Part shown: piece by piece, positions 49,330 to 53,710 of the stretch
How the letters are laid out: each line of letters opens with the position of its first letter
How positions within the stretch are numbered: the stretch's first letter is position 1
Assembly: GCA_029776065.1 (NCBI GenBank)
Contig: JARVJP010000011.1
Coordinates: 278,961-342,960 of the forward strand
Reading direction: 5' to 3'
DNA from: Nitrososphaeria archaeon
Lineage (GTDB): Archaea; Thermoproteota; Nitrososphaeria; JACIWG01
DNA: 64,000 nucleotides
Notes under the pieces: model-generated
The model's database searches: none
What the model was told of the DNA's origin: nothing
What the model saw: only the letters and a program-made list of their open reading frames with translations
Position numbers and translations under genes: made by a program

Positions 49330-50097
49330 ATGAAAATATTCGGACCCAACTTCAAATATGTGTTACTAATCTTCTTATTATCCTTAACAACTATGATCCC
49401 TGTAACTTACGGTGCCACTGAGACACTGACCGGACCGAACACATTCTTTGACACATATTATTCTGTGCCATTCTTTCTACTTGAATCCCCAGATGGATTT
49501 AACGGGAGAACGATCCTCTATGAGGAATGGGCGTTTGCAATAAGAGATGTTGACACGCCGACTGGAAAGGCTGGATTAAAAGACTTCGAACTCTTCGCAG
49601 TAAGTTATTTTGTTTATGGTTACGACCAAGAAGAAGGATACTTCGCAGAAACCATAGTCTTTGGGACCCTAGAATATGTAGAAGATGGGGAAGGATATAG
49701 TTATTGGATTCCAAATGAAGAATACAAAGTATCAGGAGGAGGGTCATTTACAGTTAGGCCTGTAGTTGGTCCTGACTACAATGATTGGGAGAGGGTTGTT
49801 TTCAAGCTTACTGGCACAGACAGCTATGGTTCGAAGGTTTTGATAAGTGGAACGTATACTTGTGCAAGTGGTCCACCAGTATACTATATTAATCTGATGA
49901 TAAAGTTGACAGGCCAAGTTTTCGAAGCCGACTGGGAAAATGACCAATGGGTTCCAACTGGGAGGGTAGAAACGCATACCCTCAAACTTAATGGCTATCC
50001 ATCTGATTACTACTATCTCTCACCTTGGTATGTGTGGGCTTACGCATATCCTGATCAGCTAATGTGGTTCCCAGGATACTGGCCTATTTATGACTAA
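49330..50097 (+). CDS. Exported protein of unknown function
   Basis: A 255-residue protein with a clear Sec signal peptide: KYVLLIFLLSLTTMIPVTYGA, with cleavage likely after YGA. The mature part is rich in tyrosine, tryptophan and acidic residues, beta-like, without cysteine motifs or a C-terminal anchor. I recognise no family. A TATA box 25 nt upstream supports the start. Its aromatic-rich ending (YYYLSPWYVWAYAYPDQLMW) is striking. A secreted binding or surface protein is a fair guess but no more. Confidence 0.65.
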   Translation: MKIFGPNFKYVLLIFLLSLTTMIPVTYGATETLTGPNTFFDTYYSVPFFLLESPDGFNGRTILYEEWAFAIRDVDTPTGKAGLKDFELFAVSYFVYGYDQEEGYFAETIVFGTLEYVEDGEGYSYWIPNEEYKVSGGGSFTVRPVVGPDYNDWERVVFKLTGTDSYGSKVLISGTYTCASGPPVYYINLMIKLTGQVFEADWENDQWVPTGRVETHTLKLNGYPSDYYYLSPWYVWAYAYPDQLMWFPGYWPIYD

Positions 50098-50355
50098 ACC
50101 CCTCTATTTTTTTATTTTACATTTAGAAATTAAATTATATGAGTAAAATAAATAATGCATGTTAAATCTCATATTTTAAGCAAGAGTTTAAGTTACTGAT
50201 TTAAACAAATTAAGTGAGCTCAAGGTTTGACTCTAAAAGGTCTGTTTTTAAGTCTAATAGTTACTTTGTAGAAGCACCTTAAAAGACGAGTTTGGAAGGG
50301 GTTGTCGTCAAAAACTTAAGTTCTTACTTTAAATATCAAGGGAGTGAAAGGTTGC

Positions 50356-51813
50356 ATGGTTATCAAACTATTCAACACAATGGGTAGACGTAAGGTGGTC
50401 TTTAGACCATTAAAGGATAAAAAAGTTGGTTTATACTGTTGTGGTCCAACTGTGTACGATTATCCTCATATTGGGAACATGAAGACATATGTGAACGAAG
50501 ACGTTCTCAGAAGGGTTTTAGAGTTAAATGGTTACAAGGTTACTCATGTTATGAATGTTACCGACGTCGGCCACTTGACAAGCCAGGCTGATACAGGAGA
50601 GGATAAAGTTGAGATGGCTGCGAGGATAAAGAGAACGAACGCGTACGAGATTGCGCGTTTTTTCGCAGAGGCCTTCTTTAAAGACTGTGACCTCCTTAAC
50701 ATTTTAAGGCCCACTATTATAGTTAAGGCTACAGATCACATAAGTGACATGATAGAGTTCATAAAGAAGTTAGAAGAAAAAGGGTATACTTATAGAATTG
50801 AAGGCGATGGAATATACTTTGATACTTCAAAGTTTAAAGCATATGGTAAGCTAACTGGGATGAATTTTAAGAAGTTAAATAAGTACCTTAAAGCTGGTGC
50901 GCGAGTTGATGTGGTACCTGGTAAAAAGAGCATCACAGACTTTGCTCTCTGGAAGTTCTCTCCAAAGGACGTCAAAAGACAGATGGAATGGGATTCACCT
51001 TGGGGTGTGGGCTTCCCTGGATGGCATATTGAATGCAGTGTCATGAGCATGAAATATCTAGGGGATACCTTCGACATACATTGTGGTGGAGTAGACCATA
51101 TTCCCATACATCATAGTAACGAGATCGCACAAAGTGAAGCAGTAACAGGTAAAAGGTTTGTGAAATACTGGGTACATTGTGAGCATGTGCTTGTTGAAGG
51201 AAAGAAGATGTCTAAGTCGCTCGGAAACTATTACACGTTAAAGGATGTCTTGGATAGAGGGTACACTTGGAGGGAGGTGAGATACTTGTTTATTTCAGCT
51301 CATTATAGGAGACAGCTGAACTTCACCTTCGAGGGGTTAAATGCTGCGAAGGCATCGGTTAAAAGAATCATCGACTTCCTAAAGAAACTTAAGCAGGTAG
51401 AAAAAGGTGCAGGCACCAAAAAGTTCAACTCATTATTGGCTAAAACTAAGAAGGAGTTTCTCTACGCAGTAAACGATGATCTTAATTTGCCAAAGGCTTT
51501 AGCGATAGTATTCAAATTCATTGCGTATGTTAACAAGATGATAGAGTTGAGGCAGTTAACCGGTGGGGATGCCGAAAAGGCCATAAAGTTAATACTTTGG
51601 TTCGATAACGTTCTTGGATTAAAGTTAAACGATTACCTTGTCGAAGAAGTTCTTCCTGATGAGGTAAGAGCGCTTATTGATTCAAGGGAAAGGGCTAGGC
51701 AAGCAAAAGACTTTGAGCTAGCTGATCGAATAAGAGAAACCATAAGAGAAAAATACGGCATAATACTTGAGGACACAAAGGACGGGACTCGATGGAGAAG
51801 AATCAGCAGATAA
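50356..51813 (+). CDS. cysS: Cysteinyl-tRNA synthetase
   Basis: Class I aminoacyl-tRNA synthetase that charges tRNA-Cys. The HIGH motif is in CCGPTVYDYPHIGN, the zinc-binding cysteine and histidines are in GWHIECSVMS and HCGGVDHIPIHHSNE, and the KMSKS loop is GKKMSKSLGN. About 485 residues. The track begins at a GTG (50344) that lies inside the ribosome site GGAGTGA; the ATG at 50356, 8 nt after it, is the better start. A TATA-like CTTTAAATA lies about 25 nt before that leader. Confidence 0.96.
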   Translation: MVIKLFNTMGRRKVVFRPLKDKKVGLYCCGPTVYDYPHIGNMKTYVNEDVLRRVLELNGYKVTHVMNVTDVGHLTSQADTGEDKVEMAARIKRTNAYEIARFFAEAFFKDCDLLNILRPTIIVKATDHISDMIEFIKKLEEKGYTYRIEGDGIYFDTSKFKAYGKLTGMNFKKLNKYLKAGARVDVVPGKKSITDFALWKFSPKDVKRQMEWDSPWGVGFPGWHIECSVMSMKYLGDTFDIHCGGVDHIPIHHSNEIAQSEAVTGKRFVKYWVHCEHVLVEGKKMSKSLGNYYTLKDVLDRGYTWREVRYLFISAHYRRQLNFTFEGLNAAKASVKRIIDFLKKLKQVEKGAGTKKFNSLLAKTKKEFLYAVNDDLNLPKALAIVFKFIAYVNKMIELRQLTGGDAEKAIKLILWFDNVLGLKLNDYLVEEVLPDEVRALIDSRERARQAKDFELADRIRETIREKYGIILEDTKDGTRWRRISR

Positions 51814-51956
51814 AGAATCTTCCCCATTTCTTGAATAGAAATCACTTTAGAATTAAATCTTCGACCTATCTTAAGGTAAAGCTTAGAAACATTCAACCCA
51901 TATCAAGAAGACTCTGTAACCCTCCTTTTATCAGAGTTTTTAAATTAAAAAGGAAA

Positions 51957-51966
51957 GATATAAATA
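51957..51966 (+). promoter_or_regulatory. TATA box (with purine-rich BRE) of the structured RNA gene
   Basis: GATATAAATA, preceded by AAAAAGGAAA as a B-recognition element, is centred 25 nt before 51987. That is precisely where the first helix of the structured RNA begins, which supports an independent, well-transcribed RNA gene. Confidence 0.6.
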
Positions 51967-51985
51967 GTAAGCTAACAAAATAGTT

Positions 51986-52216
51986 TTGCCGTTCGGTCAG
52001 GAAAAGGATGGGTTCGCTGATAGAAGATGGCATCAGGGTAGGACTTGGTGCCTGGCGCCAGCCAGTGAACGGCTAAACGAGTAGAATAGAGTTGGGGGGA
52101 ACCTCAAACCTTCCGAATCGTTTGGTCGTGGGCAAACCTAGAAGATGGTGAGAAGGTGAAAGCTAAGTAACCGTCTTCAAAGGAAAGCCACATCCGTCCT
52201 GAAAACTGAACGGAAG
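51986..52216 (+). ncRNA. Independent structured RNA of about 230 nt, family not recognised
   Basis: No ORF covers this stretch and both neighbours end or run away from it. The ends pair: CCGTTC (51989-51994) with GAACGG (52208-52213), TCAGGA (51997-52002) with TCCTGA (52197-52202), GGATG-GG (52006-52012) with CC-A-CATCC (52188-52195). Inside are hairpins CTGAT/ATCAG (52017-52036), AAACGA/TCGTTT (52075-52123) and GAAGATGGT/ACCGTCTTC (52141-52178, nine pairs with one G-U). A strong TATA box sits 25 nt upstream of the first helix. I looked for RNase P, SRP, 5S and cobalamin motifs and found none convincing. A divergent RNase P RNA is the best alternative, by topology only. Confidence 0.72.
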
Positions 52217-52492
52217 TTACCACCTATTATTCCTATTAATGATTAAACTGCTGTAACTGGAGCATTACCATAATCCTTAACAACATAGTTTCAACTTATC
52301 AGACCGGCTTCCCCTTTTTGTCATAATCTATTGCTTAAAGTTGTTTGTATTAAACCTTAGAATATTTTAGTTTGTGGCTAATATCTTTATTAGTGAATTA
52401 GTGTAATATTAAACTAGATCAGAACCTTTATAATGGCTGTGAAGGAGAGTTGCGCATCTGATGTAGTAGTGAGCTTGTTCTCCTTCTTATTA
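52217..52492. other. Intergenic region after the structured RNA
   Basis: About 275 nt of AT-rich DNA. It has an inverted repeat GAAGGAGA (from about 52440) with TCTCCTTC (to about 52487), directly past the stop of the minus-strand GTPase gene, which could end that transcript. A TATA-like TTTATAAT at about 52425 on the plus strand has no gene after it. Confidence 0.35.
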
Positions 52493-53710
52493 TCACTTTT
52501 TCTTCGTACTTGCTGATACGAGTGAGATAACGTCTCTATCTCTGAGCTTGTAAGTGATAGGTAGTCTAATTCCATCTCGACAATCGATTCCATAGAGTAA
52601 TCCTTTTGCGAGAGCAGAGTGAACCTCTTTAGCTAGGTCTGCTATTGTCGAACCATAAGGCATTAAATGCACATCAGGGAGGACGTTTCCATCTTTATCC
52701 GATAGAGTCTTTTGGTCATATACAGGATATACTGTACTCATCTTTAGCAGTTTAAAGACCGCTACATTAAGTGCAAATTGGACACCTGTGTGGAAGTATT
52801 GGCTAAGAATGACCTTTCTGATAAAGTTTAAAGCCCATTTTTGTTTATCTGTTAGTTTGCTGGGTTCTATTGTTTTAAACCTCTCTTCCCCAGGTATGTA
52901 CTTTATGTAGCCTTTCTGTTCCGCTCTCCTTAGTGTCAACTCCGCCTCAGCACTTGAGGGTATAACAATCATGTCTGAATACTCCTCACATATTCTCCCA
53001 AAATTTCCTTCTGCATGTGGGAGGTCCATCTTATTCGCAACAATGATCGTTGGTTTGGAAACATCTCGAAGTGTCCAAGCGAAATCCTTTGTATCCTTTT
53101 CATTCCAGTTCAAATAGTCCTTTCTTATTAACCCTGTCTCTTCAAGTGCTTGGAGGACGTGCTCTTTTTTAACACCTATACCTTGCATGAAACCCTCAAC
53201 TGAGGTTGCGAGGTCAACGTCCCGTTTCAGATCTCTTTCTATCCTATCTTGGTTAGTGAGAATTAATTTAAGATACCACATGACAAGTTCTTCCTCAATA
53301 TCTCCTATATCTGCTACTGGGTCTCCTGTCCCTGGTTCAGCTATTCTACCCTCCGCATCAACCGAACCAGATGCGTCAACGATATGAATTAGTGCATCGG
53401 ATTGCGCGGCGACCGAAAGAAACAGGTTCCCAAGGCCCTTTCCCATCCATGCTCCTTTTATTAAACCTGGTAAGTCGACTAGTTCGATTGGTATGAATCT
53501 CCAGCCGTCTTCACATCTCGAATTTTTTGGGTTGTCTTTGACACCGAATTCTTTGTGCACACATAGAGTTACGACGTGAGCGACACCAAAGTTCGGTGCT
53601 TTTGTGGTGAAAGGGTATGTCGATACCTCTGCGCTTTGTAAGGTTGCGGAATTGAAGAACGTCGTCTTACCTGTGTTTGTCTTCCCAATTAACCCAATTT
53701 TTACTGGCAT
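52493..53710 (-). CDS. Archaeal YchF-type (Obg-family) GTPase with TGS domain
   Basis: TRAFAC-class P-loop NTPase of the Obg/YchF group; family members bind ribosomes and ATP or GTP. G1 is GKTNTGKTT at 9-17, G3 VDLPGLIKGA with the glycine-rich GKGLGN after it, and G4 is NKMD, the guanine-type form. A C-terminal TGS domain (GSTIADLAKEVHSALAKG) is the likely RNA contact. 405 residues. It stands alone on the minus strand, convergent with the structured RNA. Confidence 0.9.
   Translation of the reverse strand: MPVKIGLIGKTNTGKTTFFNSATLQSAEVSTYPFTTKAPNFGVAHVVTLCVHKEFGVKDNPKNSRCEDGWRFIPIELVDLPGLIKGAWMGKGLGNLFLSVAAQSDALIHIVDASGSVDAEGRIAEPGTGDPVADIGDIEEELVMWYLKLILTNQDRIERDLKRDVDLATSVEGFMQGIGVKKEHVLQALEETGLIRKDYLNWNEKDTKDFAWTLRDVSKPTIIVANKMDLPHAEGNFGRICEEYSDMIVIPSSAEAELTLRRAEQKGYIKYIPGEERFKTIEPSKLTDKQKWALNFIRKVILSQYFHTGVQFALNVAVFKLLKMSTVYPVYDQKTLSDKDGNVLPDVHLMPYGSTIADLAKEVHSALAKGLLYGIDCRDGIRLPITYKLRDRDVISLVSASTKKK

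Follow-up and report, generated by a model that had tools for sequence, protein, structure and literature searches.

The ~225-nt structured RNA encoded in the window (the whole 64,000-nt stretch analysed, G000:C10:278961-342960 of a 1.74 Mb archaeal genome) is, on comparison with its homologues, a member of a hitherto unclassified RNA family of Thermoproteota archaea, without known kin. We suggest, with about even confidence, that it acts in trans as the RNA subunit of a ribonucleoprotein with cl0, the ~220-aa protein whose gene is its most recurrent neighbour (16 loci, seven of ten families, several orientations).

A covariance model (R1) that was built from this one RNA and the fold predicted for it matched 34 of 400 Nitrososphaeria genomes, with a single, nearly always full-length match in each and scores of up to 164 bits; since R1 predates knowledge of any relative, these matches support the fold independently. 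A second model (R2; 25 sequences, structure corrected by comparison) matched 64 of the 400 genomes, and a third (R3; 39 sequences) gave a full-length match of 123.8 bits in a genome of another class; the E-values of these models are rough (short calibration), the scores given here being far from the threshold. The RNA occurs in ten or more families of one archaeal class, and outside that class in four or more, usually as a single copy (two or three copies in G111, G218 and G264). Searches by DNA similarity (60 relatives, phages and plasmids) returned no match except the RNA itself, so that sequence alone misses the family, which the structure model detects. Since filtering in the genome scans was strict and no more than five candidates were scored in each genome, absence of the RNA from a genome is a soft result; the RNA of locus L285 escaped the phylum-wide scan and was recovered by local search only. 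A second group of homologues (L234-L246; family f3, genus g24) scores more weakly, at 21-47 bits, and keeps the outer architecture (terminal stem and P5 loop) with the nearly invariant core degraded.

No Rfam 15 family matched at the RNA at the gathering score, either in the window or in the homologues. At E up to 10, positions 51600-52500 yielded one minus-strand chance match only, and the homologous loci yielded only SRP and tRNA genes outside the RNA, plus chance sub-threshold matches. The sequence-only reading, made from the letters of the window, had described an unassigned structured RNA and proposed an Rfam search for a housekeeping RNA as a check; the missing match, together with strong covariation, bears this description out.

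The RNA region has a minimum free energy of -96.8 kcal/mol, as against -66.7 +/- 4.2 for shuffled sequences, none of 200 of which equals it, and the strong fold is confined to the plus strand (the minus strand gives a z of -2.0 only). It coincides with a GC island (0.54-0.55 vs 0.28-0.41 in the flanks). The overall architecture is a closed terminal stem with three arms (P4-P5, P7-P9 and P10-P12) around a nearly invariant A-rich core (Table 1), the two halves of which, GGGCAAACC and GGAAAGCCACAU, pair as GGC-AAA-CC with GG-AAA-GCC. In the 25-sequence alignment 95.2% of the cells are paired, and both sides have changed in 52 of 64 pairs; with 39 sequences the values are 93.2% and 56 of 64. For the 39 sequences the covariation score is 0.732; shuffling the 3' letters lowers it to 0.253 +/- 0.009, and sliding the partner to 0.081-0.120. 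Fitting the alignments to the model biases them towards the structure, but the margin over the controls is very large. The proposed RNA family is defined by a shared structure with compensatory changes, and in the aligned sequences these are found far above the shuffled and slid controls. Conservation and covariation in relatives had been named beforehand as the test of the element, and both were found.

Table 1. Features of the RNA gene and its fold, and cl0 of the same genome (plain numbers are positions in the window)
Feature	Position	Strand	Evidence or remark
BRE (GGAAAGA)	51952-51958	+	Sequence
TATA box (TATAAATA)	51959-51966	+	Sequence; position of TATA-like box conserved in homologues
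Structured RNA, ~225 nt	51989..52213	+	First to last base of terminal helix; z -7.13, full-length homologues, covariation
P1, 9 bp	51989-51997 with 52205-52213	+	9/9 pairs changed on both sides; 97.7% of cells paired (39-sequence alignment A7)
P2, 4 bp	51998-52001 with 52198-52201	+	93.6% of cells paired; 3/4 pairs covary
A-rich 3-nt bulge	52202-52204	+	Separates P2 from P1
P3, 5 bp	52009-52013 with 52192-52196	+	Comparative register 79% paired vs 60% in single-sequence register; 15 vs 4 doubly changed cells
P4/P5 arm	52014..52068	+	P4 52014-52019 with 52063-52068, 96.6% of cells paired; P5 hairpin 52029-52038 with 52043-52052, 95.6%; 14/16 P4/P5 pairs covary on both sides
P7-P9 arm	52070..52128	+	P7 52070-52078 with 52120-52128, 94.5% of cells paired; P8 52088-52089 with 52110-52111; P9 52093-52097 with 52102-52106, 97.8%; apical loop often GNRA
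Core 5' half GGGCAAACC	52130..52138	+	Nearly invariant in 25 sequences
P10	GGC 52131-52133 with 52187-52189; CC 52137-52138 with 52182-52183	+	Within core
P11/P12 arm	52141..52178	+	P11 52141-52149 with 52170-52178, 9/9 pairs covary, 89.8% of cells paired; P12 52155-52156 with 52163-52164
Core 3' half GGAAAGCCACAU	52182..52193	+	Nearly invariant in 25 sequences; also in other-class homologue G416
cl0 of the window's genome	G000 C10:34697-35332		~296 kb from the RNA

The comparison also revises details of the fold. Three stacked terminal helices (6, 6 and 7 bp) had been read from the single sequence; the terminal stem is real, but P1 and P2 differ in length from that reading and the third helix lies in another register. 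The proposed pseudoknot between 52043-52048 and 52163-52168 has to be given up: only 49% of the cells can form it, and its 5' side is already taken up by the 3' strand of P5, a helix formed in 96% of the cells, with 103 cells doubly changed. The 10-mer TAGAAGATGG is present in two copies within the RNA, at 52021-52030 (before P5) and 52139-52148 (at P11), and is not conserved in homologues.

The RNA appears to have its own promoter, as had been proposed. The BRE/TATA pair sits ~30 nt 5' of the first paired base, with the end of TATAAATA 22 nt before the terminal helix, and the transcript is predicted to start a few nucleotides 5' of 51989. In 22 of 40 homologues (14 families; 1.2 expected) a TATA-like hexamer lies 40-18 nt before P1, in 20 of these at -33 to -30, and TTTT is found at the RNA 3' end in half of the homologues. 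Four homologues of family f3 (L178, L229, L231 and L233) are without a TATA-like box upstream of the RNA; GGATTGTC, a different promoter element, is common to three of the box-less f3 homologues at about the same place (L178 too). No substantial ORF overlaps the RNA, in line with the sequence-only reading, but short, probably spurious ORFs touch it, at its ends only. Since the position of the TATA-like box is conserved and the gene neighbours vary, we infer that the RNA is transcribed from a gene of its own and acts in trans.

In the window the RNA lies between cysS (50344-51813, plus strand) and a convergent GTPase gene (52493-53710, minus strand). Alignment of this spacer among related genomes had been suggested, and proved empty, because in same-family genomes neither cysS nor the RNA stands beside the GTPase gene; nor was the RNA found in any of 63 named GTPase loci. 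The RNA follows carA-carB directly in f16 and with two genes between in the window, which suggests a native, inherited gene. Pyrimidine genes occur near the RNA in varied arrangements (L138-L144, L143, L146, L148 and the window), as phosphoribosyltransferase-cl0-pyrE-pyrD in f11 and as carA-carB in f16 and the window. Identity to the best same-family cysS is a mere 39% for the window cysS, which lies between carB and the RNA, as compared with 83-84% for the GTPase next door; a horizontal replacement of cysS is possible. The gene at 49330-50097 encodes a 255-aa protein that has no match in Pfam and apparently begins with a signal sequence.

The linkage to cl0 is the main ground for proposing a partnership. 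cl0 adjoins the RNA in ten families other than the window's; it lies tail-to-tail with the RNA in f13, f19 and f3, upstream on the same strand in f9 and f12, and divergently in f10; in f11 it is again co-directional with the RNA but downstream, a phosphoribosyltransferase gene lying between. In a prospective test, the surroundings of cl0 (6-8 kb) from 20 genomes of other classes were scanned with R3. With default filters L285 (family f32) was significant, and with filters off 13 of these loci gave exactly four strong full-length matches (E 2.3e-12 for L285, 7.5e-12 for L302, 1.1e-9 for L297 and 1.1e-7 for L296), the next-best match being a 24-nt fragment of 13.7 bits. All four RNAs stand tail-to-tail with cl0, at a distance of 5-34 nt except in L302, where the RNA overlaps the cl0 3' end. 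Genomes of 1-3 Mb usually hold one copy of the RNA, so that its occurrence next to cl0 in 4 of 13 loci is far beyond chance; the linkage is old and reaches beyond the class.

Co-occurrence points the same way. cl0 is present in 58 of the 64 RNA-bearing class genomes and in 156 of the 336 without detected RNA (Fisher 7e-12, a value that ignores shared ancestry), and four same-family genomes are without both. cl0 is nevertheless much commoner than the detected RNA, with 214 of 400 class genomes and 105 of 229 phylum genomes (46%), and because of this last frequency its presence in G416 lends weak support. cl0 was not found in six of the RNA-bearing genomes, two of which are more than 90% complete, and at six further Nitrososphaeria cl0 loci searched with filters off no RNA was seen beside cl0. 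Where cl0 occurs with no detected RNA, either the RNA has diverged or cl0 can do without it.

These exceptions bear on the main alternative, to which we give a substantial though distinctly smaller chance: the RNA may be a stand-alone housekeeping or regulatory RNA working with other proteins, and its proximity to cl0 an inherited tail-to-tail gene order of no functional meaning. Such an order, found in f13, f19, f32, f40 and f52, could be ancestral, cl0 is widespread without a detectable RNA, and the RNA is sited away from cl0 in f1, f16, most f3 and f10 genomes and the genome of the window. An inherited order accounts less readily for the same-strand arrangements of f9, f12 and f11, in which proximity is kept in other orientations, and for the same-family genomes that miss the RNA and cl0 together. 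It is improbable, in our view, that the RNA instead regulates the cl0 gene, by convergent or antisense transcription, and is not a partner of the cl0 protein; a tail-to-tail gap of a few nucleotides and the overlap in L302 would suit such a role, whereas an invariant core with three covarying arms goes far beyond what antisense action needs, and in many families the RNA is co-directional with cl0 or distant from it.

cl0 has no match in Pfam, NCBIfam, PADLOC or among PDB sequences. Its AlphaFold2 model (pLDDT 92.5, pTM 0.88) has the order alpha-beta-beta-beta-alpha-beta of PD-(D/E)XK nucleases, and the best Foldseek matches, weak as they are (E ~1e-3 and above), are mostly to that superfamily (nearest folds 3dnx, 2okf of XisH type, SfsA, EndoMS and XPF). 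With its invariant residues E60, D87, E100 and E102, cl0 shares the D and E-x-E motif and is predicted from the model to adopt a PD-(D/E)XK nuclease-like fold; it differs from these nucleases in having E-x-E for E-x-K, the motif Lys being replaced by Glu, and in having no solved relative at the sequence level. This replacement, and a pI that is near-neutral or acidic in most members, count against the ribonucleoprotein reading.

Under the ribonucleoprotein reading, the RNA would fold around its nearly invariant core, the folded RNA would bind or position cl0, and the complex would act on nucleic acid, perhaps in genome maintenance. The last hint comes from the neighbours of cl0 outside the class (by Pfam, PCNA, XPG/FEN1, a Hef-type ERCC4 helicase, uracil-DNA glycosylase and a GIY-YIG nuclease); that these repair genes vary between genomes counts against it. 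More tentatively still, and on balance somewhat doubtfully, the RNA and cl0 may form an ancient nucleic-acid-processing ribonucleoprotein of the Thermoproteota, core in the manner of RNase P or SRP and, in several lineages, either lost or too diverged to be recognised.

Other structured elements lie close to cl0. Upstream of it in f34 and f29 are strongly structured intergenic elements (L288:4328-4658, L289:3091-3321 and L293:3787-4017; z -7.6 to -10.4), those of L288 and L289 sharing loops like AAAUGGCUGAA and internal loops GAnAAAGAC; the three may represent a further type of RNA linked to cl0. Very stable long hairpins are found by cl0 at L291:4098-4328, L286:3585-3815 and L294:4610-4811 (z -8.8 to -13.4), those of L291 and L294 being stable on both strands. 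In those of these six loci that were scanned, R3 left the cl0-adjacent structured elements unmatched.

It is rare for a large structured RNA to be conserved with an invariant core, and several found earlier turned out to be the heart of essential ribonucleoproteins or ribozymes. The present family is missing from Rfam 15 despite its spread within and beyond its class, and its recurrent pairing with one uncharacterised nuclease-like protein provides a concrete candidate partner; if the partnership is true, the RNA would be the RNA half of an RNA-protein machine of an unfamiliar kind. The open-access papers searched yielded no account of an RNA of this kind.

Finally, considering known systems, the RNA resembles archaeal RNase P RNA (RF00373) in size class, closed terminal stem, multi-arm fold and single-copy gene, the likeness in topology having been noted in the sequence-only reading. 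It departs from it in giving no family match (none to RF00373 up to E 10 in 51600-52500), and the same genome has its own RNase P RNA gene (G000:C3:224867-225147, 187 bits), so that the resemblance does not carry over into identity. Archaeal SRP RNA (RF01857) is likewise of this size class and encoded by a stable single-copy gene; there is no RF01857 match at the RNA, the SRP RNA gene of the genome lies at G000:C3:267793-268102 (114 bits), and in two f13 loci both RNAs are present as distinct nearby genes. As to H/ACA and C/D guide RNAs, no Rfam snoRNA family matched at the RNA, and boxes and K-turns, sought by eye only, are not conserved. A riboswitch or cis-leader is rejected, as had been foreseen, since the RNA does not regularly precede, in the same direction, genes of any one class and adjoins different genes in different orientations (it precedes the phosphoribosyltransferase gene only in f11, follows carB in f16 and elsewhere converges with cl0 or the GTPase gene). 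It is therefore very improbable that the RNA is a known archaeal RNA in divergent form (RNase P, SRP, guide RNA) or serves as a riboswitch or cis-acting leader, even though its size and terminal stem recall RNase P, a phosphoribosyltransferase gene follows it at short distance in f11 and pyrimidine genes (carAB, pyrE and pyrD) recur near it. A further parallel is offered by OLE, GOLLD and ROOL, which are bacterial RNAs with Rfam entries. The RNA described here differs from these in being archaeal and smaller, in its linkage to a PD-(D/E)XK-like gene and in matching none of their models. Like these bacterial orphan large structured RNAs (cf. PMC12286853), it is a large covarying RNA with function unassigned, first recognised by comparison.
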